Shown here in pieces: positions 2,994 through 53,423 of a stretch of DNA of 64,000 bases (the stretch's first letter is position 1; every line of letters starts with the position of its first letter). The DNA is taken from NCBI RefSeq assembly GCF_027980145.1, contig NZ_JAMZNK010000018.1, forward strand, positions 1 through 64,000, read 5' to 3'. Position numbers and translations under genes: made by a program. The notes under the pieces are model-generated. The model was given only the letters and a program-made list of their open reading frames with translations, had not been told where the DNA came from and did no database searches. This DNA comes from Flavobacterium azizsancarii. GTDB lineage: Bacteria; Bacteroidota; Bacteroidia; Flavobacteriales; Flavobacteriaceae.

Positions 2994-3387
2994 GGGGTCG
3001 ACTGGTTTTGACAGCAAGTCGAATTGGAAAGTAAGCACGTCGAGCATTGAGACCTTGCTCGTAAATATAAGATCTTACAATTTTACACGGCGAAAATAAC
3101 TACGCTTTAGCTGCATAATCCGAATTATAGTAAGATTAAGCCACGTCCCTATCAGATAGGGAAGCTGGATTCTCCTTGAAAGCCTTGGTTTGTGGCGGTC
3201 AGTCCAGGAGAACCGTAAAAATAAACCTAGATTTCCATGAGCTTCGGGTGGAGATCGAAATTAAGAAGATAAGTGTTGAGTGGTTGTTCCTGACCTAGCT
3301 CAACAACGAAAATCCAATCAGGAAATAAACGTGTAGAAAGCTCTTTAGTTGCTTGTTTGGACCCGGGTTCGATTCCCGGCGACTCCA
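2994..3387 (+). ncRNA. ssrA: Transfer-messenger RNA (tmRNA)
   Basis: The 5' end GGGGTCGACTGG and the 3' end GGTTCGATTCCCGGCGACTCC form the tRNA-like domain, with the acceptor stem GGGGUC/GACUCC and a canonical T arm. The 3' CCA is not encoded; the sequence continues ACAAAA. The resume codon and tag reading frame are at 3089-3118 and encode GENNYALAA followed by TAA, a typical flavobacterial degradation tag. The RNA rescues stalled ribosomes together with SmpB and tags the nascent chain for proteolysis. A strong terminator follows directly. Confidence 0.97.
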
Positions 3388-3390
3388 CAA

Positions 3391-27765: not shown

Positions 27766-30700
27766 TTATGGTAATTTAAAAGTGAAATAAATTCTTTGTA
27801 CTATAGTTGATAATTGTTTCTCTTTCTCTCCATCATTTTTTCTATTTCTATTTCCAACATTCAAATGAATCATTAATGATTCTCTTGATGTTTTATTATA
27901 AATATATCCTTCTAATTTTTTATTTTTCACACGTACTAATGCAAAAGCACCACCTATAAATATTTGGGCCAGATTAGAATCTAAATGTTTGTCAAAACTT
28001 TCAATATCATAAATTGAAGTTGGACTAAGTTCTAAATCAAGTTTTAAATCTTTACTATCAGGCTTACTTACAAAATCATAATTAGTTTGTCTTAATAATT
28101 TTAAAGTTTCCTCCATGATTTCATCAATCATTCGGCCTTTTAAGAGAGCTTGTGCAAATTTATGTTCATAATAATCAAAACTGCGAGTTTCAAGTCCTTT
28201 ACCTGTTGCAAATTCATAAATTAAAATAGCAACTGTTGCTTCATAACTTTTTTTAAATAATATTTTCTTTTCCTGTTCTCCCAGTTTCTCCACTCCTGGA
28301 TAGATACGTTTTGCCGTTTTAACTAATGCATTTACCGCTATTTCGTCAGGCAGTTTTTTTACTTCTTCTGTGAGGGTATTTACTATTTTCTCTAATTCTT
28401 TTGGTATCTTTACTCTTAATTTTTCACTTATCTCATTAATTTCACTCATATCAGCATATAATTGTTCAATTAAATTAGCATATTCTTTATTGTCAAACCC
28501 CGTTATTCTTGTTGCTTTAAATTCTTTTTTAATCTCAGCGTAGAGTTCTTTCAAATCATCATAAATTATTTTCTCGATAGCTAATGCTGAATTTGAAACT
28601 TCATTACCAATATTTGTTAACGAATTCTTGATTTCTTTTTTAATATTAGCTAATGAATTTTTAATTTCTTCAACAGTAGCATTTTGTACATCATCTCTAA
28701 CTTTAGCAACCTCATCTAAGCCAGAGGAAATATTGTCAAAATTTTTATTTATTCGCTCTAATCGCTCTAATAATTTATATTCTTTTAAATATTTTGGTTT
28801 TTCTTTTACTGCATTTTTTTGATCAATTATAAAATGATCGCTTGTCCTGATGTTGCTTTGTTTAGGATTTTCAAGTATTTTGTCAATAGTATTAACTTTA
28901 AAAGTATCACTCAATCTTAAATAATACAATTCTTTTACCATTACCTGTCCCAGTTTTACCCTATCCTCATATTTTGCAAAATTGAAAATTACTTTACCAT
29001 CTTTTGTAAAATGATTTTCCATAATATCTTGCATAATATCGGGAGCCATCCAATGGGTAAAATTCTCATTGATCTCTTTAATAATACTATCAAATTCTTT
29101 ATTTCCACTAGATGATCCTTCTTCTAATGCTTTTTTTAGTAAACTATTATTTAAATCCTTGAAAGAAGAATTTATATAATCCTGAACGAGAGACTGTTCA
29201 AATTCTACCAATTTTAAATCTAACTCTTGTTTAGATAAATTTTTAAAGCTTTGTTTATTTCCTAAGGCATCCACAAATTCACCACTTAATTTTCCTTTGC
29301 CCTCTAAAAGTAGTTTTACATTATTCATATTATCAGAAAACAAATACTTGTTTCCCTCTTTTAAGAACTCATCTGTGTTATCAGACAAATACCAAAGGTT
29401 AATCATTTCAGCGGATCCTAGTGCAATTTCGCCATCTATCGCTTCTTTTATTGAACCTACCGTTACTCTGGCCGCAGCATCAAACCATTCAGATATTATA
29501 CCTCTCGTCTTTAGATAAGTATCTACGAATTGATAATAAGCGTGACGCTGTCCAATCGTGTTGTAGAAATAATGCTGCTCGTTTATAGTATTATACAATG
29601 AAGCTTTCCAGAAAGTAGACCCTTCTTTGGTTGGATTATTGATTCTGTCAAAATCATACCATTGCCCTTCTTTTAAAGCAGGATATTTACCTTTTTTATC
29701 TATAACTATTTCGCCTTTACCATATTTAACCTCTATATTATCTAATAAACTTCCTGACCAAACAAAATACATCTGCTCTACTCCAATGTCAGGATACATT
29801 TTCTGAGGACTCAAGTTTAGATATATTTTTTTACTGGTTTGAATTGTTATCCTATCTGGTAAATTAGGAAAGACTGACTTTAATAATAAAAATAACTCAT
29901 CGTGTTCTGAAAATAATTTTTGAATATTTACATCAGGATTTCTTATTTCTTTGATCATTCTTTTGTTATATCCTTTCAAATTTTTATTTTTTACATCATC
30001 AGATAATTGCAATAACTTCAAAACCATCAACTCACTTGCATCTCCCCAATTTATGTTATTAATTGTAATCTCATCAATTGTCGCGAGACGCCACTTTTGC
30101 AAATCAAAATACATTTTTCCAAAACGATCGTGATCTTTTTTACCAACAAAATTTTTGGCAGTCGCTCCTTCATCAAAAGCTTTAGAAATGTTTTTCCAAT
30201 ACGCTGTTTCGACAGTATTATTTGCTACGATCGCAGCCTCTAATCTCTTTTTTATTTCCGTTTTAACGACTTCTGTTTTTGGCTCGTTGTTATTTGTCTG
30301 AAGTGTCTGAGGAACTGTTAACATCTCTTGCGCGGCAACACTTGCATAAGTTTGCGTCGTTATTCCGGTGCTAAAATTGAGCGTATTATTTTCTGACCCT
30401 GATGTCGGAGAATTAGTGTTGTCTGAAACGGCAGAACTCTTTGTTGTTCTGTCAGTGGTATCATCAGTAACGCCTCCTCCGATTAGAGCGTTTGAAATGG
30501 ATGTTGTTGCCGAAGGAATAATACCCGATGAAACACTCAGATTTGACATTGTTTCCCCGGTAACCAAAGGAGTATTGCCAATCGACAGTGCTGTTTCTTT
30601 GATTTCAGCAGTGGTATCGGTGGCGCCTCCTTCGGTAGAGGAAATAGAATTGTTGGCAACAGCAGCAGCATTTTGTTTTTTTTGCTCCTGCCATTCCTGT

Positions 30701-30840
30701 ACTATATCTTTTTGCTGGCTCATTTCTTTCGAAACTTTGGCCAGTTCTTTTATGATGGTTTTGGTTAAATCTTCTGAGCTTTTTATATCAGCACTATTTT
30801 GTATGGAAAGATTGAAATTATGGATTGCATTTTTACTCAT
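27766..30840 (-). CDS. Large protein of unknown function in the tailocin regulon
   Basis: 1024 residues from the ATG at 30840 (MSKNAIHNFN). A longer frame from 30876 would overlap the -7 box at 30862-30869, so it is rejected. No signal peptide. Residues about 60-200 are low-complexity Ser/Thr/Ala/Gly. A globular part follows, with WYDFDRINNPTKEGSTFW and YNTIGQRHAYYQFVDTYLKTRG around 400-460. Residues about 640-830 are heptad-like and rich in Glu/Lys (IKNSLANIKKEIKNSLTNIG), and the C-terminus is mixed alpha/beta (TSIYDIESFDKHL, YNKTSRESLMIHLN). I recognise no family. Promoter sharing makes it part of the particle system: a cargo or effector protein is the first guess, a tape-measure or other internal protein the second. 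The MORN lipoprotein follows after 30 bp. Confidence 0.75.
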   Translation of the reverse strand: MSKNAIHNFNLSIQNSADIKSSEDLTKTIIKELAKVSKEMSQQKDIVQEWQEQKKQNAAAVANNSISSTEGGATDTTAEIKETALSIGNTPLVTGETMSNLSVSSGIIPSATTSISNALIGGGVTDDTTDRTTKSSAVSDNTNSPTSGSENNTLNFSTGITTQTYASVAAQEMLTVPQTLQTNNNEPKTEVVKTEIKKRLEAAIVANNTVETAYWKNISKAFDEGATAKNFVGKKDHDRFGKMYFDLQKWRLATIDEITINNINWGDASELMVLKLLQLSDDVKNKNLKGYNKRMIKEIRNPDVNIQKLFSEHDELFLLLKSVFPNLPDRITIQTSKKIYLNLSPQKMYPDIGVEQMYFVWSGSLLDNIEVKYGKGEIVIDKKGKYPALKEGQWYDFDRINNPTKEGSTFWKASLYNTINEQHYFYNTIGQRHAYYQFVDTYLKTRGIISEWFDAAARVTVGSIKEAIDGEIALGSAEMINLWYLSDNTDEFLKEGNKYLFSDNMNNVKLLLEGKGKLSGEFVDALGNKQSFKNLSKQELDLKLVEFEQSLVQDYINSSFKDLNNSLLKKALEEGSSSGNKEFDSIIKEINENFTHWMAPDIMQDIMENHFTKDGKVIFNFAKYEDRVKLGQVMVKELYYLRLSDTFKVNTIDKILENPKQSNIRTSDHFIIDQKNAVKEKPKYLKEYKLLERLERINKNFDNISSGLDEVAKVRDDVQNATVEEIKNSLANIKKEIKNSLTNIGNEVSNSALAIEKIIYDDLKELYAEIKKEFKATRITGFDNKEYANLIEQLYADMSEINEISEKLRVKIPKELEKIVNTLTEEVKKLPDEIAVNALVKTAKRIYPGVEKLGEQEKKILFKKSYEATVAILIYEFATGKGLETRSFDYYEHKFAQALLKGRMIDEIMEETLKLLRQTNYDFVSKPDSKDLKLDLELSPTSIYDIESFDKHLDSNLAQIFIGGAFALVRVKNKKLEGYIYNKTSRESLMIHLNVGNRNRKNDGEKEKQLSTIVQRIYFTFKLP

Positions 30841-30861
30841 CGCTTGGTGTTTTTCTGGGTG

Positions 30862-30924
30862 TAAAAATAGTATCAATGTTTGCGATTTTTAAATTTCAAG
30901 ACACGTGTATTCAGTAGTTTCAGC
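30862..30924 (-). promoter_or_regulatory. Tailocin promoter A-minus (leftward)
   Basis: On the minus strand the box CTGAAACTACTGA begins at 30923 and the -7 element TATTTTTA at 30869. Measured from the base in the A position of the box (30924) the spacing is 55 bp, as in the rightward copies. It drives 27766-30840 with a leader of about 15-20 nt. Confidence 0.78.
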
Positions 30925-30937
30925 AAGTTATCGTTTT

Positions 30938-31001
30938 ACTGAAACTACCGAATTCACCAGACTTTTTTTAGTTTATTTTGTATTCTTCTGTCCTACTTTT
31001 A
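30938..31001 (+). promoter_or_regulatory. Tailocin promoter A-plus
   Basis: Box ACTGAAACTACCG at 30938, -7 element TACTTTTA at 30994-31001, spacing 56 bp. The box forms an inverted pair with the leftward box at 30911-30923, so one bound factor or two could switch both directions. The leader to the fibre gene is about 350 nt and holds a small reading frame. Confidence 0.78.
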
Positions 31002-31123
31002 CACCCTCAAAAAACAAATACTGATGTTGTTTTTATCGAAAAATAACTCGAAAAGACTTTGCTTCTTTTCCAAAAAAAATAATCAGCACACTATATATTA
31101 ATCACCCTAAAACAGCAGCCATT

Positions 31124-31249
31124 ATGGATTATGTATTATCAACAGGCATGGCAAAAATGCCCAAAATCCCAGACAAGAATAATTCACGACTTTTCTTAAT
31201 CACACATTTAGAAAAAAGATTTGAGACAGGGAATTTAATCCTACCCTAG
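31124..31249 (+). CDS. Possible small protein ahead of tail fibre 1
   Basis: A 41-codon frame starting MDYVLSTGMAKMPKIPDKNN. Its start (MDY, then MPKIPD) resembles the start of the 64-residue protein at 39744 (MDYTPRDLGETPKTPD), and both are the first reading frame behind a tailocin promoter. That parallel is the only reason to list it; it may be a decayed copy or a leader peptide. No function known. Confidence 0.35.
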   Translation: MDYVLSTGMAKMPKIPDKNNSRLFLITHLEKRFETGNLILP

Positions 31250-31352
31250 ATTGACGGGTTAACAAAACCAAAATATCTATTATTCGTCTCCATACTTAAG
31301 AAGGTTCAATTTATCAAAATCAAATAATTACATCATTTTAAAAGAAAAAAAT

Positions 31353-34300
31353 ATGGCTTTACAAACATTAAATACCATAAAACAATGGTTCAAAACGGGT
31401 TTAAAACCAACACAAGCTCAATTCTGGGATACCTGGGATTCGTTCCGACATAAATTTGACAAAATCCCTGTAAAAGAGGTTGAGGGACTAGACGAATTAC
31501 TCTTATCCAAAGCTGACAAAACTGTTCTAGATCATCACCTTGCTGATAAAAATGCTCACGCACCACAAGTAAATACGGATTGGAATAGTGAGTTCGGTTT
31601 TAGTCAATTACTTAACAAACCTGAATTTAAAACGATCAATGGAGAGCCATTGACAGGTGATGGAGATATAATTATTGAAGCAGGCGGATCCCAGGATTTA
31701 CAAACCACTTTAGCCAATGGTAATGAAACCACAAACGGCATAATGTTTAACGATGACTATTATAATTGGTTAAAAACAAGCATAGATTCGAGATCTATAC
31801 GTTTAACAGATAGTAATTCAGATATGTTAGTAGCTATTGATTCTGCCGGTGTTGTTACACGAGATGATAGTCAGCATGTTTCACTAAATCCTCAAGGTAT
31901 ATTTTTTAACAGAGACACTGCTGAATCCTATTTACGAATTAATACATCTTCTACAGGCGTTAGCACAGTAAATTTACCTGCAACTGAAGGTGCAGAAATT
32001 ACATTAACTGCTACAGACGATTTTAAAACAATCAACGGAGAATCTATTATTGGAAAAGGCAATTTAAACATTGAACCTCAAGGTCTAAAATCCGTTTTAG
32101 ATGCAGATCCTACTGCTTCTTATGGCCAAAGTAAAGCAACCCTAATGGGTGATTACGGTACTTCGAAATATAACGAGATTATCGTTTCTGATGAAACCGA
32201 AAAAACAGGTATCTATCAGTTAAAAAATCAATTATCATTTGACCATACTGTATTAGATTCTAATGACATAGGAAATATAACGCTTTCAGAAGGCAATGTT
32301 ATATTGACCAGATATAAATCTGATAATCAGACTATTGTCGATATATCTGATCCCGTTGCTAATACTCAATTAAGATTTCCGGCAAAATCAGAGGAAGGTA
32401 AAACATACACGATAGCTACTACAGAAGATTTTAAAACTATTAATGGAGAATCTATTGTAGGTTCAGGTGATATCCTTATCAGTGGAGGTGACGGAAATAT
32501 TCCTACCCTGCAAGAAGTATTAGACAAAGACAGAAATGCTACAAATGCAAGTATAAATTTACTATCAGAGGAGGGAGAATCACAAACCACTGTACATGAA
32601 GGAGGTCTTAACATATCTGAAAAAACAGAAACAGGTTTCCTGATTACAGATATCAATAAACTGGGAGTTTCAGTAAGTAAAGATGAAGAAACTACTTTCG
32701 CAAATATATCAGCTGATGAACTATCTTTAAATAAAAATCTATCCGGAAATCCGGTTAAGCAAGGCATTGTATTAAATGAGGATAGTGCCGGAACGTCTAC
32801 TATTAAACTGCCTCTGACTTCAGATGGGGATGTAAAAACCTTGGCTACAACAGAAGATTTTAAAACAATTAATGGAGAATCTATTGTAGGAGAAGGAGAT
32901 ATTATTTTGAGTGAGGGGAGTCAAGATTTACAACAAACCATAGACAATGGATCACTCGCCGTATTTAATGATAGTAAGCAATACGTAGCAATGTTTAATG
33001 AAGGAGCTCCTACTTCTTTTGGTATAGGATCATCAGATGGTACTTATCATTCAACTTTAATCATAAATCCAGATCTTCCATCTATACAACAATCCTCTAA
33101 TAATGGAGATATAGCTTATGTGGGGATATCCAAAAACAAAATTATATTATCAGAGAGTCTATCAGCTGGTATTACTAAAATAAAATTTAATCCCCCTACA
33201 AGTATTTCAACTTTAAATTTTCCTGCTCCATCTGAAGATGGAGAATACACACTTCCTCTAAGGATTAATGGACAAGTTGCAGATAAGTATGGTGATGTAA
33301 CGATTCCTACAGGTGGTGGATCACAAACATTAGATCAAGTTTTGGCTGCTGGAGACGAAGCAATTGGAAAAAGTTTTGTTATTAAAGATCAAAACATATC
33401 TGTAAATAATAATGTTTTTGTAAGTCCACAGTCTATTCATCTGTTTAGTGAGGATAAAGATTTTTTTATGACTTTAAATAATTTTGGTATAAGTTCATTA
33501 TATGGAGATCAATCAAAAGGGCTAAGGTTAAAGAAAACAGGTCTTAACTTTTTTGAGTATGCTGATGGAGGAGTAGATTGTACTTTGATTCAAAATACAG
33601 AATCAAGCGGTTTGTCGTCAGTAGTAATGCCTTTAATGCTTGATGGAGAAACAAAAACCTTAGCTACTACAGATGATTTCAAAACTATCAATGGACAATC
33701 TATTATAGGAGTTGGTAATATCGCTGTAGGAGGAGCCACTCTAGATGCAACTACTGCGGTGAAAGGTATTGTGAAACTTACCGGAGATTTAGGAGGTACA
33801 GCAGATAATCCTACAACGCCTACAGCGGTTCACAAAACTGGAGGTTTAGCTGAATCAATAAACGGATCAAAAACATTTACTAACATACTTGGCATATCCA
33901 GTAATACTTCGGGAATAGACTTCGCAAGTCCTTCATCCTATACAGGTAGTTCTACGCCATTTTTAAATAATAGGGGTGGATATTTACAGCTTGTGGGGTC
34001 TACAGGAGGAACGGGTGGAGGAGGTTTAGGTTTAATGTTAGATACATCATTAATAGGAACTACAGCAAAAAAAGTACAATTCCCTAATAAAAATGGAGTT
34101 TTGGCGATGGTTTCCGATTTGCCAGTTGACCCAATTACAGGAATGGGAAACCCGAACTCTATTCCGAAATTTACAGTGGCCGGAGTTTTAGGTAATAGCA
34201 CTTTTTCTGAGGTAGCCGGGTCAGGTTTTATAAATGGTGACTTTTACATAAATCCTTCTTCTGGTGGTAAATTAACATTTCAAAAATCATCGACACCTTT

Positions 34301-35742: not shown

Positions 35743-35805
35743 ACTGAAACTAAAGAAAACGCCGATCTCATTTTTCTTTTTATGCGTTTTTCCATATTAC
35801 TTTTA
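35743..35805 (+). promoter_or_regulatory. Tailocin promoter B
   Basis: Box ACTGAAACTAAAG at 35743, -7 element TACTTTTA at 35798-35805, spacing 55 bp. It drives fibre 2 with a leader of about 280 nt in which no convincing gene is seen. Confidence 0.78.
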
Positions 35806-36088
35806 CACGCTCAAAAGTCGAATAATGACATTAATCTATATACATTAATTCGCAAACTTTCAGGATATTTTTATAAAAACATCCTCCTCTCCTACTCAGA
35901 GAAAATAATTCTACCTGAATGAAATATTAATAGCAATAAATAACAAATCAAACACAAAAATCATGAGAGAGATGCCTGAAAATAACCAATAAAACAATCT
36001 AAAAAAACAGATTAATCTGTGATTAAAAAAATTAATCCAAGAACTGAATTCATCACAATCTAAAACTACATAATTTAAAAGAAAAAAC

Positions 36089-39000
36089 ATGGCTTTACAA
36101 ACATTAAACACCATAAAACAATGGTTCAGAACGGGTTTAAAACCAACACAAACTCAATTCTGGGATACCTGGGATTCCTTCCGACATAAATTTGAAAAAA
36201 TTCCTGTAAAAGATATCGACGGAATTGACGAATTGCTTTTATCCAAAGCTGACAAAACCGTTCTAGATAATCACCTCGCCGATAAAAGTGCTCATGCACC
36301 ACAAGTAAATACAGACTGGAATAGTGAATCGGGTTTTAGTCAATTGCTTAATAAACCTGAATTTAGAACTGTTAATGGGGAAACTATTGTTGGAACCGGG
36401 GATATAGCTATCACTACTGAACCTGCAGATTTACAATCCGTTTTAGATAATGGGTCATATGCTAAGTTAGAAAATAAGACTGTACAAATATACAATCATG
36501 GAGCAAATCCACTTGATTATAGTCAATCAACCTCACACCCTAACTTTATTCAAATTACCAATATGAAAGATCATAATTCTGGTAGATTTGAAGTTGGTAG
36601 AGGTTTTGCTAATATTGTACAATCTACTGCAGATGGTAATACAACAACAGTAGAGTTTGAAAATAATTTTAGCGAGACAGGAAATAAAGTTAACATAAAA
36701 TTTCCTTCAAAACCCACCGGAGATTATACCTTATCAACAACTTCTGATTTTAAAACAATCAATGGAGAATCTATTATTGGAGAAGGTAATTTAGACATTG
36801 AACCTCAAGGTCTAAAATCCGTTTTAGATGCAGATCCTACTGCTTCATATGGAGAAAGTAAAGCAACCTTAATGGGCAATTACGGTACTTCGAAATATAA
36901 TGAGATTATCGTTTCTGATGAAACCGAAAAAACAGGTATCTATCAATTAAAAAATCAATTATCATTTGATCATACTGTATTAGATTCTAATGACATAGGA
37001 AACATAACACTTTCAGAAGGCAATGTTATATTAACAAGGGATAAGTCGAATAATCAAACGGTTGTCGATATATCTGATCCTGTCGCTAATACCCAATTAA
37101 GATTTCCTGCAAAATCAGAAGAAGGTAAAACATATACGATAGCTACCACAGATGATTTTAAAACCATTAACGGAGAATCTATTGTAGGTTCAGGTGATAT
37201 CGTTGTAAGCGGAGGTAACGGCGATATACCTACTCTGCAAGAAGTATTAGACAAAGACAGAAATGCTACAAATGCAAGTATAAATCTCCTATCAGAGGGG
37301 GGAGAATCACAAACCACTGTACATGACGGAGGTCTTAATATTTCTGAAAAAACAGAGACCGGCTTTCTTATTACAGATATCAATAAACTGGGAGTTTCAG
37401 TAAGTAAAGATGAAGAAACTACTTTCGTAAATGTATTAGCTGATGAACTATCCTTAAATAAAAAATTATCAGGAAATCCTGTTAAACAAGGCATTGTATT
37501 AAATGAGAACAGTTCCGGAGCATCTACAATCAAGCTGCCTCTGACTTCAGATAGAGATGTAAAAACCTTAGCTACAAAAGAAGATTTTAAAACAATCAAT
37601 GGAGAATCTATTGTTGGAGAAGGAGATATTACAATAGAGGGCGGAGCATCTCAGAATCTACAACAAACATTAGCTAATGGAAATACAACTAATTTAAAAT
37701 CTATTTTTTCTAAAGGCAATTATGTTACGACTGTAGATCCTAGTTTTATTACAATACAACATCCTGAACAAGGATATTTAACCATAAATCCATATAGCAT
37801 TCATTTACAGAGTCCCACTTCTACTGGATCAGCTTATTTATCGGGTATTAATGGCCTATCAATAGGTAATGAATCTTCTGCTTCATATCTTCAATACAAT
37901 CCTTTATCCAATCAGAATGGTATTTATCTGTTTCCTTTAAATAAAGGTTTTGATCCACCTAGAACACTGGCTACAACAGAAGATTTTAAAACAATCAATG
38001 GAGAATCGATAGTTGGGACTGGTGACATTGCGATAGAAGGCGGAGCCACTTCAGATGCAACTAGTGCAGTAAAAGGGATTGTGAAACTTACCGGAGATTT
38101 AGGAGGTACAGCAGATACACCAACAACGCCTACAGCAGTTCACAAAACAGGAGACGAATTAATTTATGGTAGAAAAACATTCATAAGTGATAATCTAAAT
38201 AAAAGCGCATCGGCTTTCGTAACTAGAGATAATGCTACAGAATCAGCATTGACAGCTAACAGTACGTCTACAACACTTCCGGCTTTTACAGCTCTGGCAA
38301 CAGCCGATAACGCAGTGGGAATATCTGTTCGTAATTTCGGAACGAACTCTACAGGTATTAGGATAGAAGGCAATCAAAATAACCCATCTGTTAGCCGTCT
38401 ATTAACGTTGTCAAATAAAAAGGCTTCTAATGGACAGGTTGATATAGCAACGCCTTTAACTATTTTAAGAGATGGCGAAACAGTCGCAACTATAAGTAAT
38501 TTAGGGGGTTTTACCGGAAATTCATTTACAAAAACAGGAGGTTTAGCAAGTCAGTTTTTAAAAGCTGATGGATCTGTAGATTCAAATGTTTATAATAATG
38601 ACGCAAATGTAATTCATAAAACGGGTGATGAATCTAAAAGCGGATTTTTAACACTTAATACAGGTTTAAAATTGGATAGTTCTTTTATATCCTGGCTTGG
38701 AAGCCCCTCGAAACCAACAGGTTCAGGATCTGCAACTATAACTGCCATAGGAAATGATATAGCTATAGCGTCTGGATCATCTTCACGACAATTTGCGACA
38801 TTTAAAACTGATCTACTTAGTACGGCGCAAACTTATAGTTTCCCAAATAATAGTGGAGTAATAGCTTTGTTATCAGATATACCTACAAACGCCCCGGCCG
38901 GAACTTCAGGAAGTTATACCGCAACAGTCTCAGAAATAACTAATGTATCTATAAACGGGATAGGCAGAATGTCCAATTATATAAAAGTAGGAAATGTAGT

Positions 39001-39543: not shown

Positions 39544-39606
39544 ACTGAAACTACTGAAAACAGTCGTTCAATTTTTCGTTTTTCACGCACTTCTGCCCTA
39601 TTTTTA
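39544..39606 (+). promoter_or_regulatory. Tailocin promoter C
   Basis: Box ACTGAAACTACTGAAA at 39544, the most regular copy (two ACTGAAA repeats 9 bp apart), -7 element TATTTTTA at 39599-39606, spacing 55 bp. It drives the baseplate hub and spike unit 39744-43547. Confidence 0.8.
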
Positions 39607-39743
39607 CATACTCTAATAACCTCTATTAGCATCCCCAAACAGACATAATAATACACTTTATTTTCAATTTTTTTTGAGAATGGATACCTCATCTGTAGAC
39701 AATACCTTCAATAATCATATTAACCATTAAACATTCACCCATC

Positions 39744-39938
39744 ATGGATTATACACCAAGAGACTTAGGAGAAACGCCTAAAACACCAGACATGAGCAAT
39801 TTCAAAAATCCCTTGGGACAAACCACAGAGGGCAACATTTTTATAGAAAGTTTTAACATCACGCCCTTAAGCGTATCCGAAAAAAATGAAAGTCTCACCG
39901 AAGTCCTAAAAAAAGAAAGCAGAGACAGCAATATTTAA
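39744..39938 (+). CDS. Small hypothetical protein, first gene of the hub/spike unit
   Basis: 64 residues, hydrophilic, starting MDYTPRDLGETPKTPDMSNF and ending in a Glu/Lys/Ser-rich tail. No signal, membrane segment or known motif. It is preceded by promoter C and followed after 27 bp by the 156-residue gene. Its N-terminus resembles the small frame at 31124. It could be a minor baseplate or chaperone protein; nothing supports a firm call. Confidence 0.55.
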   Translation: MDYTPRDLGETPKTPDMSNFKNPLGQTTEGNIFIESFNITPLSVSEKNESLTEVLKKESRDSNI

Positions 39939-39965
39939 TATCTAGAAATCTCTAAAATCATAAAA

Positions 39966-40436
39966 ATGCCAGTTCAAACAATTCTACAAAAACTAAAAGA
40001 AAAATACGGTACACTATTAAAGCTGACCTCTGATGATCAAGTAAACACTGCTTATTGCAAAAAGCCAACTTTTACTACATTTCTTAATTATCAAAATAAA
40101 TACAAGGATAATCCGCATGAAGCGATTCTGTTTTTATTTCAGGAATGTGTCCTGGCTGAAGAGAATTATGATGATGAATTCATGCTTTCGGCAGGAAATT
40201 CTATTGTCGCCATCATCAAAAACGATAGCGAATTCTCAATCGATGCCACACCACAAAAAGATGAATTCAAAAAGTCAGCTGCACTTATTCGGTATGCGTT
40301 TCATGTCGATCCGTATCAATTATCGATGGATGAGTTTTACAAACTGCTTGAAGAAGCTTTGTGGTTACAAAAACACAACGAGAAAAGAATGGAAAATACC
40401 TTCATGACTGCCTTTGCCCAAACATTTTCAAATTAA
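39966..40436 (+). CDS. Hypothetical tailocin protein
   Basis: 156 residues, mostly helical by composition (HEAILFLFQECVLAEENY, LIRYAFHVDPYQLSMDEFYK), with no signal peptide. Position between the small leader gene and the baseplate adaptor suggests an assembly or baseplate-associated role. No family recognised. Start ATG at 39966; 19 bp to the next gene, so it is part of the operon. Confidence 0.65.
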   Translation: MPVQTILQKLKEKYGTLLKLTSDDQVNTAYCKKPTFTTFLNYQNKYKDNPHEAILFLFQECVLAEENYDDEFMLSAGNSIVAIIKNDSEFSIDATPQKDEFKKSAALIRYAFHVDPYQLSMDEFYKLLEEALWLQKHNEKRMENTFMTAFAQTFSN

Positions 40437-43665: not shown

Positions 43666-44466
43666 TTAGTTTAATTTTTTTCTCAAAGTCTCTTCCATTT
43701 CATAAAATTTACTTTCGAGATCGTGAATCTTTTCATAGATATTAATAGGATCGGGCATTTGCTTAGAAGCATACATGCTTGCGTACCAAACTTCCAGAAT
43801 ATCCTCGGCATAAATAGAATACATTGGGTAATTTCCGTCTCTGTTGTCGGATTTCAGGATTAATTTTCCACTTTCCCTGATTCGGTTTAAAACCCTTTTT
43901 ACTACTACTCCATCATTCTTACTGATAATAACATAAATTCTTCCGTCAAGGATATCATCAAAATTATCGACGTATTTCCCAAAAAGGTAATCGCCGTCAT
44001 GAATGGTTGTCGACATCGAGTTTCCTTTTATTTCAAAACATCTGTAGGTACCGTTTTTTAACATTGGCATACTGAATGACGGAAGACTTTCCATATATTC
44101 CGGATCAGAATAACCGTCTAAATAACCTGCTCTTGCTTTTACTCCGACAAAATTAATATTCTCCTCCCCGTCTTCATTTACCGTTATAATCTTAGGTAGA
44201 TTCAGCCCCACTTCGCCAGTTGTTTTATTGGCGAAAATTTCATCACTATTTCCAAAAAAATAGTCCGGGTTTACATTACAATGCGTAATGATACTTTGCA
44301 GCAAATCAAAACCTGGCTTTGTCCTTTTTCTTTCTCCGTCAGACTGCAATCTTCCAATAGTGATACTATCTATTGTAGTACTGGTTACTCCTATTAACTT
44401 CGCAAATGAGTTATTATTTAACTTCAGCTCGTCTATAATACGTTTTATCTTAGTATGTATTTCCAT
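43666..44466 (-). CDS. S24-family (LexA/CI-like) repressor with XRE HTH
   Basis: 266 residues. The N-terminal Cro/C1-type helix-turn-helix (about 5-65, NNNSFAKLIGVTSTTIDSI) is joined to a peptidase S24 domain. The catalytic Ser150 (KGNSMS) and Lys190 (GVVVKRVLN) are intact, and an Ala113-Gly114 bond (KARAGYLDGY) stands at the expected autocleavage site, 37 residues before the Ser. RecA-stimulated self-cleavage after DNA damage is therefore expected. A short C-terminal coiled coil (about 243-266) is unusual. The gene is leftward, opposite to the regulatory unit at 44748, and two similar 26-bp sites lie in the region between. By analogy with PrtR of pyocins it should keep the tailocin silent. 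Confidence 0.88.
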   Translation of the reverse strand: MEIHTKIKRIIDELKLNNNSFAKLIGVTSTTIDSITIGRLQSDGERKRTKPGFDLLQSIITHCNVNPDYFFGNSDEIFANKTTGEVGLNLPKIITVNEDGEENINFVGVKARAGYLDGYSDPEYMESLPSFSMPMLKNGTYRCFEIKGNSMSTTIHDGDYLFGKYVDNFDDILDGRIYVIISKNDGVVVKRVLNRIRESGKLILKSDNRDGNYPMYSIYAEDILEVWYASMYASKQMPDPINIYEKIHDLESKFYEMEETLRKKLN

Positions 44467-44523
44467 GTTGTTGCATTTGTTTTAATTATGTAATATGTTT
44501 TAAATAATAATACACATTCCACT

Positions 44524-44549
44524 ATATGTTGCAAAACTAAAAAATATAT
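44524..44549. promoter_or_regulatory. Putative repressor operator O1
   Basis: ATATGTTGCA...ATATAT over 26 bp, close to O2 in sequence and length. It lies 58 bp upstream of the repressor start, where autoregulation is expected. A further partial copy (AATATGTTTT) lies at 44492-44501. Confidence 0.5.
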
Positions 44550-44665
44550 CATAAATAATAGCATTCTTTTCTATTTATTTTACGTAACAGCTGAACATAA
44601 AGACATTTAAAGCCTTTTTCTTACTGTATTACTCTAATAGTCAATATAAAAAACTAAATCATATT

Positions 44666-44729
44666 ACTGAAATTACTGCATTTTTCATCGTAATATGTTG
44701 CACAAACTAAAACATATGTTGTATATTTG
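44666..44729 (+). promoter_or_regulatory. Tailocin promoter F (regulatory unit)
   Basis: Box ACTGAAATTACTGC at 44666 (one change from the others), -7 element TATATTTG at 44722-44729, a perfect TAnnTTTG, spacing 56 bp. It is the only copy whose -33 region carries the putative repressor site O2. It drives 44748 and the HTH gene at 45423. Confidence 0.75.
44693..44718. promoter_or_regulatory. Putative repressor operator O2
   Basis: ATATGTTGCACAAACTAAAACATATG contains the inverted pair ATATGTT/AACATAT and ends 3 bp before the -7 box of promoter F. A bound repressor would cover the -33 region. Confidence 0.55.
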
Positions 44730-44747
44730 TCAAAAATAATCCACCAT

Positions 44748-45323
44748 ATGATTCTAAAAGATTTTTATACCGAAAAAAAGAACGCAATCGAAATAGAGTT
44801 CACTTCTAATGCACCAATAGTTCAACTTTATAGTGATGCCATTTTTAAAGATGCTATTGAAACACCGGTAGTAATGTTTAAATATGATACCGTAGACTGG
44901 GAAACATCTTCTGAAAAAAACTACAAAGCAGATGTATCATTTTGTCTGTATATAATATTACCTGTAGCAACTATTTCTTCTACAAGTTATGCAAATGCGT
45001 TTGATATTGCCCAGCGAATAGACAAAGCAGTATTGTCTAAAAGCAACAGTAATGCTGCTATAGATACTAACTCAACGTTTAAGATAAGAGAAAAACAATG
45101 TACAAACGAACACACGTACTGGAACAAAAATGATTTTTTTATTTGGGAGATTACCTATAAAACCACCTTGATAGAAAATATCTTAAAAAAGAAATACATC
45201 CTTTTTAATAATGGTTTAAGCAATGAAGAACTGGAAGAGTTAGGATATGACTTAGAATCCGGAATCATCGCAATAAATCCTAATCAGGTCGAAGAAAATA
45301 TCGATTTAAAAACCAATACTTAA
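44748..45323 (+). CDS. Tailocin protein of unknown function (tail-terminator-like position)
   Basis: 191 residues from the ATG at 44748 (MILKDFYTEKKNAIEIEF). A longer frame from a TTG at 44727 is rejected because that TTG lies inside the -7 box. The core is alpha/beta (TPVVMFKYDTVDWETSSEKN, ADVSFCLYIILPVATISST, FDIAQRIDKAVLSK), with a shape like small phage tail-terminator or tail-completion proteins; no family is certain. First gene behind promoter F and thus directly under the repressor. Confidence 0.6.
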   Translation: MILKDFYTEKKNAIEIEFTSNAPIVQLYSDAIFKDAIETPVVMFKYDTVDWETSSEKNYKADVSFCLYIILPVATISSTSYANAFDIAQRIDKAVLSKSNSNAAIDTNSTFKIREKQCTNEHTYWNKNDFFIWEITYKTTLIENILKKKYILFNNGLSNEELEELGYDLESGIIAINPNQVEENIDLKTNT

Positions 45324-45422
45324 TCTCAATAAGCAATCAAATAAATTACATGGCATAAAAATACCGCAGCACACGAAGCCAAATCATAAATAAAATCAAC
45401 CCATCTTTTTAAAACCCAAGAC

Positions 45423-45602
45423 ATGAGAAGAAGCAGAACACTATTAGACAAAAGGAGAGAGTATGTGATCAACTATCTAAATAGAAATCAAGCTAAACAA
45501 ATGAAAGTTGTAGTATCTGAACTTTCGGATACTTTGTTCCTGACGGAGCGTACTATTTACACCATTATCAACGAAGGACTCGCTACAGAGGCGAGAGCTT
45601 AA
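45423..45602 (+). CDS. Small HTH protein, candidate activator of the tailocin regulon
   Basis: 59 residues, very basic at the start (MRRSRTLLDKRREYVINYLN), followed by a helix-turn-helix-like segment VVVSELSDTLFLTERTIYTI (about residues 30-49) with the usual Ser-Glu-Leu, turn and recognition-helix spacing. It ends 3 bp before the box of promoter G. It lies 100 bp after 44748 in the unit under promoter F. Small size and place recall PrtN of pyocins: made when the repressor is lost, then binding the ACTGAAACTACTGA boxes. The DNA-binding fold is a fair call; the target is inference. Confidence 0.65.
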   Translation: MRRSRTLLDKRREYVINYLNRNQAKQMKVVVSELSDTLFLTERTIYTIINEGLATEARA

Positions 45603-45605
45603 AAC

Positions 45606-45668
45606 ACTGAAACTACTGGTTTTGACGATCAAAAAAATTGGAAAAAGCAACCTTGAGCCTTAAATTTG
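45606..45668 (+). promoter_or_regulatory. Tailocin promoter G (sheath/tube unit)
   Basis: Box ACTGAAACTACTGG at 45606, -7 element TAAATTTG at 45661-45668, a perfect consensus, spacing 55 bp. It drives the sheath gene, which should be the most abundantly expressed; it has one of the two best -7 boxes of the set. Confidence 0.8.
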
Positions 45669-45908
45669 TACTCGATATCAAAAGCAAGTTTATCTCCTGG
45701 CCAAGAACAGGATCCAATTGAAAAACCGGTTTTTATACCACGTCCAAAAATACCCTTTCTACTTTTTGGATTCCCGATTACGAATATCATTTTTAACATA
45801 ATAAATAGCTGATTCATAACAAATTAAACAACTTGTTACGGCCCTTCTTTTGCCTTTTTTCGGGCAAAAAACAAGAACAAATTTTCAACACTTAAAACAA
45901 TTTATATT
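45669..45908 (+). other. Long structured 5' leader of the sheath mRNA
   Basis: About 230 nt between promoter G and the sheath ATG. A small hairpin TCCTG...CAGGA lies at 45694-45712, and TTTTGCC...GGGCAAAA (about 45846-45870) forms a second one some 40 nt before the start codon. No credible ORF on the plus strand. It may stabilise or tune translation of the sheath message. Confidence 0.4.
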
Positions 45909-47084
45909 ATGAGTACATTAAACGATGTAGTGATTACCAAACTATCAGGCGGATTAGGAAGAAGAAGTCCGGAGCAGGACATGGTTTCAGGATTACTTTT
46001 TGATGAACCTACCGGGATTTTGCCTGAATTAAAATTAGAATTAGAATCTGACACAGTAAAACGTTTAGCATCATTAGAAGATGCCGAAGCCTTAGGTATT
46101 ACAGAACAATATGATGTAAGTGGTCAGTCTGTTTCCTATCAAATTCAGCAATTTTTCAGAATGAATCCTTCCGGTGATTTATATATTATGAAAACTGCTG
46201 CCACTTCTTATGAGGACATTGTTGCTAAAGCAATGGACATGCAGGAAAAAGCAAACGGAAATATTCGTCAAATGGCCATTATCTATTCCGGAGCAACCAC
46301 ATTTGCACAAACTCAAGCTGCAGTTTTAGCAGCGCAAACTCAAGCTGATCTTGCTTATGCAGATTATATGCCTTTTGAAATTATTTTAGAAGGAAAAGGT
46401 TTTACTGTTGATGCAGCTTCTTTAGCCGGATCAGATTCTGAAAACGTATCTGTAGTTGTGGCTATGGATTTGGAAAAAGCAAGTAAATACAAAAATTCAG
46501 CAGCAGTTGGATTAGCATTAGGTGCCATTTCTAAAGCAAAAGTATCTGAAAACATTGCCTGGATCGAAAAATTCAATCTAACTGGTGAAGGTTTTGCCAA
46601 AGCTGGTTTTGTAGGCGGAAAAGAAATTAAGGATCTTGGCACTTTAAGAGAATTAAACGAAAAAAGATTCATTTTTACAAAAACGCACACTGGTTTACCT
46701 GGTCTTTATTTTAACGACAGCCACACCTGTACTCTTGGAACTTTAGACTTTGCTTATGTCGAAAACAACCGTACAATCAATAAAGCTACTCGTTTATTAC
46801 GTACCGCTTTATTGCCAAAATTGGCTTCTCCGGTTTTAGTAGATATTGATGGTAAACTGCCTCAATCTGTTTCAAAAAGCTTTGAAGGTTTATGCAGATC
46901 TGCTTTAGAAGGAATGGTAGGCAATCAGGAAGTTTCTGATTTTGATGTTTATGTTGATCCAAAACAAAACATTTTAGCCACTTCAGAATTAAAAGTAAAA
47001 GCTGAAATTACTCCAATTGGAACTGCCCGTAAAATTATGGTTGATTTAGGATTCAAAAATCCATTCGGAATCGATAAAGCATAA
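45909..47084 (+). CDS. Contractile tail sheath protein (DUF2586-like)
   Basis: 391 residues. The start MSTLNDVVITKLSGGLGRRS is the pattern of the DUF2586 sheath-like family of Bacteroidota. The middle shows alternating alpha/beta folds (VSVVVAMDLEKASKY, AAVGLALGAISKAKVSENIA), and the C-terminal half has the sheath-type segment RTINKATRLLRTALLPKLASP (about 295-315) followed by the region that would form the inter-subunit handshake (LATSELKVKAEITPIGTARK). The product polymerises around the tube and contracts to drive it. It is followed by the tube gene, the canonical order. Confidence 0.85.
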   Translation: MSTLNDVVITKLSGGLGRRSPEQDMVSGLLFDEPTGILPELKLELESDTVKRLASLEDAEALGITEQYDVSGQSVSYQIQQFFRMNPSGDLYIMKTAATSYEDIVAKAMDMQEKANGNIRQMAIIYSGATTFAQTQAAVLAAQTQADLAYADYMPFEIILEGKGFTVDAASLAGSDSENVSVVVAMDLEKASKYKNSAAVGLALGAISKAKVSENIAWIEKFNLTGEGFAKAGFVGGKEIKDLGTLRELNEKRFIFTKTHTGLPGLYFNDSHTCTLGTLDFAYVENNRTINKATRLLRTALLPKLASPVLVDIDGKLPQSVSKSFEGLCRSALEGMVGNQEVSDFDVYVDPKQNILATSELKVKAEITPIGTARKIMVDLGFKNPFGIDKA

Positions 47085-51351: not shown

Positions 51352-51414
51352 ACTGAAACTACTGACTTACAACTCCATATTATTTTTCAAACACGCTATT
51401 TCGGCGTATTTTTA
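51352..51414 (+). promoter_or_regulatory. Tailocin promoter D (lysis unit)
   Basis: Box ACTGAAACTACTGA at 51352, -7 element TATTTTTA at 51407-51414, spacing 55 bp. It drives the M15 endolysin, the lipoprotein and the 110-residue protein. Confidence 0.8.
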
Positions 51415-51544
51415 CAGTGTTATTAAAACGTGTTTCACCTCTTAAATGTGATCACAAAAAAGGAACTTTTCAAGCTTTATTTACAAGTTTTTCTTAACCG
51501 TAAATAAATCCTTAAACACAAATAATCTTATTGCAGCATAAAAA

Positions 51545-51580
51545 TCCTGATTGTCGTTAAACTATCAGGAAAGGCTTTTT
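51545..51580 (+). other. Hairpin with T-run in the leader of the lysis unit
   Basis: TCCTGAT / ATCAGGA with a 12-nt loop, followed by AAGGCTTTTT. It lies 130 nt after promoter D and about 35 nt before the endolysin ATG. It looks like a weak terminator or attenuator and could delay lysis gene expression. Confidence 0.5.
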
Positions 51581-51615
51581 ATTCTCAAAATTTGAAATCT
51601 TTAATACACACAAAT

Positions 51616-52984: not shown

Positions 52985-53047
52985 ACTGAAACTACTGATT
53001 AGGAACCTCAAAAATCTTGGTTAAAGGCAAATCGCGGTGTATTTTTA
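52985..53047 (+). promoter_or_regulatory. Tailocin promoter E (baseplate wedge unit)
   Basis: Box ACTGAAACTACTGA at 52985, -7 element TATTTTTA at 53040-53047, spacing 55 bp. It drives 53136 onward and probably the wedge genes, the collar fibre and the holin. Confidence 0.8.
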
Positions 53048-53135
53048 CAGTATCAAATAAAATAGCATCTTTTTGATATGGCGCGCAGATTCAAAAAGAA
53101 GTATTCATTAATAAAACAACAAATAATAACGGTAT

Positions 53136-53423
53136 ATGAAAGATTTTATCATAGATGAAGACTTGTTAATTACAGATGGAGATTTCGCCCTGAAACAGGC
53201 AGATCAGCAAAACATAGAACATCTATTGTTAAGCCAGAAAGGAAGTTATAAAGAGTTTCCGATTCTGGGAGTAGGAATCAAAAAATACATCAACAGTCCG
53301 GATGCAACCTCCAGGCTAAGACTAGAAAACGAAATAGACAAACAATTATCGTATGACAACTTTTTTGTAAAAACATTAGATGTCAACGATTTACAAAACA
53401 TTAAAATCGATGGAAACTATTAA
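53136..53423 (+). CDS. gp25-like baseplate wedge protein
   Basis: 95 residues, shorter than the usual 110-140 of gp25 but with its typical order: LITDGDFALKQADQQNIEHL, then KGSYKEFPILGVGIKKYINS and RLRLENEIDKQLSYDNFFVK. The EFPILGVGI segment and the ENEI helix are the hallmark of Bacteroidota gp25-like proteins. It nucleates the sheath at the baseplate. Its 3' end overlaps the next start by 14 bp. Confidence 0.75.
   Translation: MKDFIIDEDLLITDGDFALKQADQQNIEHLLLSQKGSYKEFPILGVGIKKYINSPDATSRLRLENEIDKQLSYDNFFVKTLDVNDLQNIKIDGNY

Follow-up and report, generated by a model that had tools for sequence, protein, structure and literature searches.

A candidate mini-activator and its promoter box in phage-tail-like gene clusters of Flavobacteriales

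In Flavobacterium azizsancarii, a repressor of the self-cleaving S24 type appears to hold back a 59-residue putative DNA-binding protein. Once made, this protein would switch on a whole set of phage-tail-like (tailocin) genes through one short DNA box located at a fixed distance from each promoter. We analyzed a 64,000-nt stretch of this genome (GCF_027980145.1, contig NZ_JAMZNK010000018.1, positions 1 to 64,000; hereafter the window) and found that relatives of the protein and the same box also occur in other genera and in a second type of locus, read as contractile injection loci (eCIS). The initial annotation proposed that DNA damage leads to repressor cleavage, firing of promoter F, synthesis of the small helix-turn-helix (HTH) protein and binding of all eight boxes, that of F included. 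Our analyses confirmed the sequence features on which this order was based and support it as the best reading, although binding, cleavage, activation and the direction of effects are inferred.

The repressor, the 59-residue protein and the boxes in the window

The window contains, between 30.9 and 58 kb, a contractile tail cluster with fibre-like genes, baseplate hub genes (PHROG 5233 and 4930), a DUF2586 tail sheath (45909–47084, plus strand), a tube protein, an M15 peptidase and a holin. The term fibre-like is our reading, because only the N-terminal stretch of genes 31353 and 36089 is kept in most related loci while the rest varies, and the libraries gave weak hits only. In the middle of this cluster, the repressor gene (43666–44466, minus strand, 266 aa) matches Pfam Peptidase_S24 (E = 1.6e-10) and the PHROG 4 repressor family (E = 3.7e-23). 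The Ala113-Gly114 site and the Ser150 and Lys190 residues were found where the initial annotation had placed them. They are kept in 92 of 94 S24 matches in related loci, and the other two (in loci L171 and L175 of the named genome collection) are partial alignments that do not reach these residues; the 94 contain repeats, because our genome and locus samples share genomes.

Promoter F lies in the region divergent from the repressor. Its activator box (44666–44679, plus strand) is the variant ACTGAAATTACTGC and its -7 element (44722–44729, plus strand) is TATATTTG. Between them, at 44693–44718, is the likely main operator, an inverted repeat ATATGTT..AACATAT that covers the TTG at 44698–44700 near -33. 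A second repressor-type site, TATATGTTGCAAAACTAAAAAATATA, is present at 44524–44549; a similar site was seen in some related stretches. The half-site TAATATGTTK occurs without mismatch only twice in 64 kb, at 44491 (TAATATGTTT, 44491–44500, plus strand, near the repressor start) and at 44691, both in the divergent region. With one mismatch allowed it is at chance level (28 against 31 expected), and thus only exact sites were used. Promoter F keeps box, operator and -7 element in 32 of 33 tailocin loci (22 by regular expression and 10 by eye), and the remaining locus (L097) lies at a contig edge.

The first gene of the F unit (44748–45323, plus strand, 191 aa) is not named by any library scanned. 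A structure search with its predicted model (pLDDT 71) suggested a tail-terminator fold, with matches to the monocin cap (E = 1e-6), the Mu terminator (3.4e-5), lambda gpU (1.2e-4) and the R2 pyocin collar (8.3e-4). This gene is followed by the 59-residue frame (45423–45602, plus strand), whose stop codon is separated by 3 bp from the box at 45606.

Comparison of the 59-residue frame with those of 18 genomes of the genus (three further ones were left out for length or distance) indicated that it is a real gene under purifying selection: dN is 0.007–0.08 and dS 0.31–1.23 (dN/dS about 0.01–0.09), and changes at the three codon positions are 32, 30 and 302 (302 of 364 at third positions). AlphaFold2 predicted a three-helix HTH fold with helices at residues 7–21, 27–38 and 42–58 (pLDDT 86.1, pTM 0.67). 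The protein belongs to a family of 51–63 aa, hereafter mini-HTH, which no library scanned names. Sixteen representatives share 18 invariant positions. The best Pfam match is HTH_22 (11 of 16 members, best E = 0.0015; the first member lies below the cut-off), the best PHROG match is phrog_17790, which has no function (best E = 0.00026; 9 of 16 members at E up to 0.5), and the two members scanned gave no NCBIfam match. A structure search returned only generic HTH folds, homeodomains first, and no PDB fold match at E 0.001.

Searching the window for the 14-bp box ACTGAAACTACTGA with up to three mismatches gave 17 matches against 7.2 expected, and 0 of 100 shuffles reached 17. Eight of them have at most two mismatches, and in all eight TAnnTTT starts 55 nt (six sites) or 56 nt (30938 and 44666) after the box start, whereas none of the nine three-mismatch matches has this. 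TAnnTTTG and a TTG near -33 are probably the promoter elements of Bacteroidota, in which case the box centre lies about 60 bp upstream of the expected start site. Besides the box of F, these sites are GCTGAAACTACTGA (30911–30924, minus strand; -7 at 30869), before the gene listed as 27766–30876 on the minus strand; ACTGAAACTACCGA (30938–30951, plus strand; -7 at 30994), before fibre-like gene 31353; ACTGAAACTAAAGA (35743–35756, plus strand; -7 at 35798), before fibre-like gene 36089; ACTGAAACTACTGA (39544–39557, plus strand; -7 at 39599), before the baseplate genes from 39966 on; ACTGAAACTACTGG (45606–45619, plus strand; -7 TAAATTTG at 45661), before the sheath gene at 45909; ACTGAAACTACTGA (51352–51365, plus strand; -7 at 51407), before the M15 peptidase gene at 51592; and ACTGAAACTACTGA (52985–52998, plus strand; -7 at 53040), before gene 53380, which has no family. 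Six of the promoters have about 170–355 nt between the -7 and the listed gene start, and F has about 13 nt. For the minus-strand box at 30911, the true start of the gene must lie downstream of the listed TTG, e.g., at the ATG at 30840 in our reading, in which case this distance is short too. No conserved RNA structure stood out in the sheath leader (RNAalifold, -11.3 kcal/mol over 20 sequences), and Rfam at gathering scores found only a tmRNA in the window.

Taken together, we consider a two-step switch very likely. At rest, the S24 repressor would sit on its operator over promoter F. After DNA damage, RecA filaments would promote its self-cleavage, and F, which has its own TTG near -33 and a full -7 element, would fire and produce the predicted tail terminator and the 59-residue protein. 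The latter would then bind the box and recruit RNA polymerase to the other seven promoters and back to F. The initial annotation had suggested positive feedback at F; however, the F box differs from the others (it ends in GC and, in the window, lies at 56 rather than 55), so any such feedback may be tuned.

Distribution of the mini-HTH protein and the box

We first examined 299 genomes of the genus. At E 0.01, 23 of them match the 59-residue protein: 21 at 76% identity or more (the genome of the window included), a Flavobacterium MAG (G678) at 58%, and one genome (G652) at 29% in a 305-aa frame. The pattern box-N39..43-TANNTTTACA was found in 21 of 299 genomes and its reverse in 0. A close sheath (E = 6e-115 or better) is present in 21 genomes, and 12 more have only distant sheaths (E = 2e-47 to 3e-21) and no pattern. 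The three sets of 21 are the same genomes. This is one linked unit rather than 21 independent events; it ties the box to the cluster but does not by itself show that the 59-residue protein binds it.

A scan of a named genome collection gave 112 stretches encoding a relative. The best 80 comprised 38 loci of tailocin type (Flavobacterium, Dokdonia, Tenacibaculum, Aquimarina and others), 34 of a second type (32 titled Chryseobacterium), 4 of Kordia and 4 others. In G678 (locus L136), the second type is an eCIS, as neighbouring genes match Phage_sheath_1C, T4_gp19, CIS_tube, Phage_base_V and gp25, whereas the Chryseobacterium loci were assigned by shared flanking genes only. Interestingly, the second-type (eCIS-type) loci carry ACTGCAACTACAGA with the -7 element at the same distance. 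In 34 of them (724 kb), 106 matches to the box were found against 3 in the reversed sequence, 87 of 106 with A..TTT at the expected offset, and 6 of 6 boxes in G678 have the A and TTTG in place. In 33 tailocin loci (835 kb), there were 187 matches against 8 in the reversed sequence, 168 of 187 with A..TTT at one of the two expected offsets (129 and 39, no overlap). At strict spacing, 35 of 38 tailocin loci (not L123, L126 and L171) and 33 of 34 second-type loci (not L166) have a box, and reversed sequences gave 1 and 1.

A divergent S24 gene was detected within 2.5 kb upstream of the mini-HTH gene in 67 of 80 loci. The other 13, Dokdonia and most Tenacibaculum among them, lack an adjacent S24, although L097, L164 and L172 hold less than 2.5 kb upstream and the test is incomplete for these. 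The S24 of the second-type loci is only 25–33% identical to that of the window, and its gap to the HTH gene holds another palindrome, GAACNNNGTTC, in 33 of 34 loci, 32 times directly before TATATTTG and in L136 before CATATTTG; L168 has none. Between tailocin and eCIS-type loci, our comparisons found in common the mini-HTH, a fibre-like N-terminal domain and a distant S24, so the mini-HTH is the best candidate reader of the shared box. That the box is the same while the sensor differs is the strongest argument for this assignment.

As a further sample, we analyzed 148 genomes of the Chryseobacterium group, in which the relative has about 51 aa. Of these, 47 have the protein, 48 the pattern and 45 both. 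Two genomes (G808 and G836) have the protein only, and three have the pattern only: G834 is 87% complete, and the matches in G902 and G928 look like coding sequence by eye. Some boxes lie far from the mini-HTH gene, 0.14, 1.2 and 1.5 Mb away on the same contig in G876, G696 and G874, or on other contigs of draft genomes, which may still be neighbours. All of the nine remote boxes examined stand 150–580 nt before a gene whose start matches the N-terminal domain of gene 31353 of the window (E = 1e-7 to 1e-15), suggesting that the activator would act in trans on dispersed fibre genes.

Kordia-type loci are an exception. Although their S24 is 60–63% identical to that of the window, seven loci gave 7 chance matches to the box, 0 at the expected offsets, with 1 in the reversed control. 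Searches with the tailocin box and a relaxed box-plus-promoter pattern, as well as a de novo word count, found no activator box. The single strict hit, in Kordia locus L165, lies in the repressor-side coding stretch and does not resemble the box, and the repeats of the G288 locus (GGCGCGCTTTTA) stand around toxin/immunity-like genes and are not promoter boxes. Three of these genomes (G353, G179 and G288) have lysin, holin and a protein of about 1150 aa there, whereas G096 and G077 do not have all of these. By eye, half-sites like the operator of the window seem to cover the promoters of the HTH, lysin and 1154-aa genes directly in G353 and G179, so the mini-HTH must do something else there. 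All five genomes have K43 where the others have R43, and among the 80 named loci 76 have R43 and 4, all Kordia, have K43. Residue 43 opens helix 3 and is a candidate specificity residue, no more. Another genome, G235, has an S24-HTH pair with R43 and no box on one contig, and on another a tailocin with three intergenic diverged boxes at spacing 54–55 (a fourth match lies inside a gene).

Weak mini-HTH hits in G259, G125 and G311 (frames of 98–124 aa, no S24 match nearby) and in G652 were left out of the counts. As G125 rises to E = 2.4e-6 with the Chryseobacterium query, longer distant members may exist. Relatives were also detected in seven phage records, Chryseobacterium phage MA9V-3 (57.7%) and six F. 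psychrophilum phages of the FPSV group (37.5%); in FPSV-S1 the relative lies beside Mu-like head and sheath genes. Descent from a phage late activator is plausible but not shown.

It is probable, though less certain than the switch itself, that this unnamed family is a portable master activator of contractile weapons in Flavobacteriales, which runs tailocins, eCIS-type particles and chromosomally dispersed fibre genes through one box at one promoter spacing. The damage sensor in front of it (two distantly related S24 repressors with different operators) would have been swapped, and a third lineage (Kordia type) would have lost or changed the box.

Alternative interpretations

Given that direct binding has not been shown and that the mini-HTH also exists in Kordia-type loci without boxes, it is possible, but unlikely, that another factor (a host regulator or a sigma partner) binds the box and that the 59-residue protein is a modulator, for example an anti-repressor. 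However, the pattern is absent from all 278 genus genomes without the cluster and nearly absent from Chryseobacterium-group genomes without the mini-HTH (3 of 101, two of which look like coding sequence by eye), and a general host factor should not be so confined. In addition, boxes far from the cluster occur in genomes that encode the mini-HTH elsewhere.

It is still less likely that the locus is a temperate prophage and the switch its lytic switch. The sheath is of a phage family (DUF2586), IMG/VR holds 40 contigs with a mini-HTH relative, and distant relatives occur in true phages. On the other hand, of the 18 distinct cluster proteins scanned with PHROGs, which do not cover every ORF, none gave a clear terminase, portal or capsid hit. 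The one strong head-named hit, PHROG 9206 (E = 1.9e-23), falls on the tube gene 47174, which also hits a tail family (E = 2.4e-21), and a terminase family touches the sheath at E = 0.044 only.

That the S24 repressor, the expected DNA-binding protein of such loci, itself binds the boxes is very doubtful, because operator half-site and box are different sequences in one and the same promoter, box-bearing eCIS-type loci use a distant S24 with its own palindrome, and Kordia-type loci with a much closer S24 have no box.

Comparison with known systems

No paper on this circuit was found in the open literature searched, which mostly excludes subscription journals and preprints. A review noted that some eCIS loci lack conserved regulatory genes and that it is unclear how they are regulated (PMC10598620). 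The circuit offers a possible answer for one group of Flavobacteriales, namely one tiny gene, easily missed by ORF cut-offs, and one 14-bp box, which also works as a search tag for particle genes anywhere in a chromosome. If confirmed, the protein would be, in our judgement, a very small single-domain transcription activator and would define an activator-dependent promoter class in Bacteroidota.

The circuit should work like PrtR/PrtN of Pseudomonas aeruginosa pyocins, in which an S24-type repressor blocks an activator gene and the activator works on boxes upstream of tail, lysis and bacteriocin genes (PMC10598620, PMC4905994); induction by DNA damage is likewise expected here. However, the activator and box are different. 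No PrtN family was among the 20 Pfam families matched by 16 mini-HTH members at E up to 0.5, although Pfam probably holds such a model. The P-box is described as usually four repeats of ATTGnn(n)GTnn(n) (PMC4905994), and no such unit lies within 250 nt around any of the eight boxes, with at most 2 units within 45 nt anywhere in the window.

Late transcription activators of phages (Mu C, PHROG 836) are probably also small HTH proteins that switch on tail and lysis operons. One of 16 family members matched PHROG 836 (E = 0.0021), and Mu C is one of many tied fold matches (Z 6.1, 52 aligned, rmsd 3.1). There is no clear sequence relation, and the protein described here is placed under an S24 repressor. 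GerE-domain regulators beside eCIS loci have been proposed as eCIS regulators (PMC8213781), and GerE (1fse) is the only PDB match of the family profile up to E 5 (E = 0.022). This match is not significant, and the mini-HTH is much smaller and is coupled to an S24 repressor and a box.

Finally, the genome of the window has no match to the LexA DNA-binding domain (PF01726), whereas the control gave a signal in 10 of 14. SOS in Bacteroidetes is run by non-canonical S24 phage-like LexA repressors with an Ala-Gly bond and a Ser-Lys dyad (PMC8565304), so an S24 repressor as damage sensor fits. Those repressors bind GGA-N5-TCC or CTAA-N5-TTAG and govern SOS genes, whereas here the operator-like repeat is ATATGTT..AACATAT and the target is a weapon locus.

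Leaders and conserved stretches of the box promoters

Six of the box promoters in the window (30938-31353, 35743-36089, 39544-39966, 45606-45909, 51352-51592 and 52985-53380) have about 170-355 nt between the -7 element and the listed gene start, and promoter F has only about 13 nt. Of the leaders, that of the sheath gene was analyzed for RNA structure, and no conserved structure stood out in it. A different feature was observed in the box promoters of the eCIS-type loci, in which a second conserved stretch, AAAAACTTT, is located 27 nt upstream of the -7, with A..TTT at offset 29 in 60 of 106 matches. In addition, a tmRNA (Rfam RF00023) was found at 2994-3390(+), near the left end of the window.

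Other genomic settings of the S24 and mini-HTH genes

In several related stretches (the loci L131, L144, L165 and L174, and the stretch from genome G288), the S24 and mini-HTH genes were found beside genes for lysin, holin, a protein of about 1150 aa and toxin/immunity-like proteins, next to rnpA and a ctpA-like peptidase gene, an arrangement that looks like a lysis-released bacteriocin locus. In the G288 stretch, repeated GGCGCGCTTTTA...AAAGCG elements are present around the toxin/immunity-like genes (positions 32221, 33778, 34588 and 35030 of the oriented stretch), which are possibly sites of cassette exchange.

One genome (G235, contigs C47 and C10) has two mini-HTH paralogues, one of which is paired with S24, whereas the other is in a tailocin without an adjacent S24. 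The Dokdonia tailocins (loci L124-L127) keep operator-like repeats without an adjacent S24, suggesting control in trans. A Flavobacterium-type tailocin with both S24 and mini-HTH was detected on a contig titled Limnohabitans MAG (locus L123), which is perhaps misbinned.

Dispersed fibre-like genes and distant mini-HTH matches

Orphan fibre-like genes were found to be scattered over Chryseobacterium-group chromosomes (stretches L221-L229), each of them behind an activator box.

Weak mini-HTH-like matches were also observed inside longer frames of 98-124 aa, without an S24 match nearby, in the genomes G125, G259 and G311 (stretches L009, L008 and L010, respectively), and the match in G125 reaches an E value of 2.4e-6 with the Chryseobacterium query. 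Chryseobacterium phage MA9V-3 (record L219) encodes a mini-HTH relative as well as a tmRNA.
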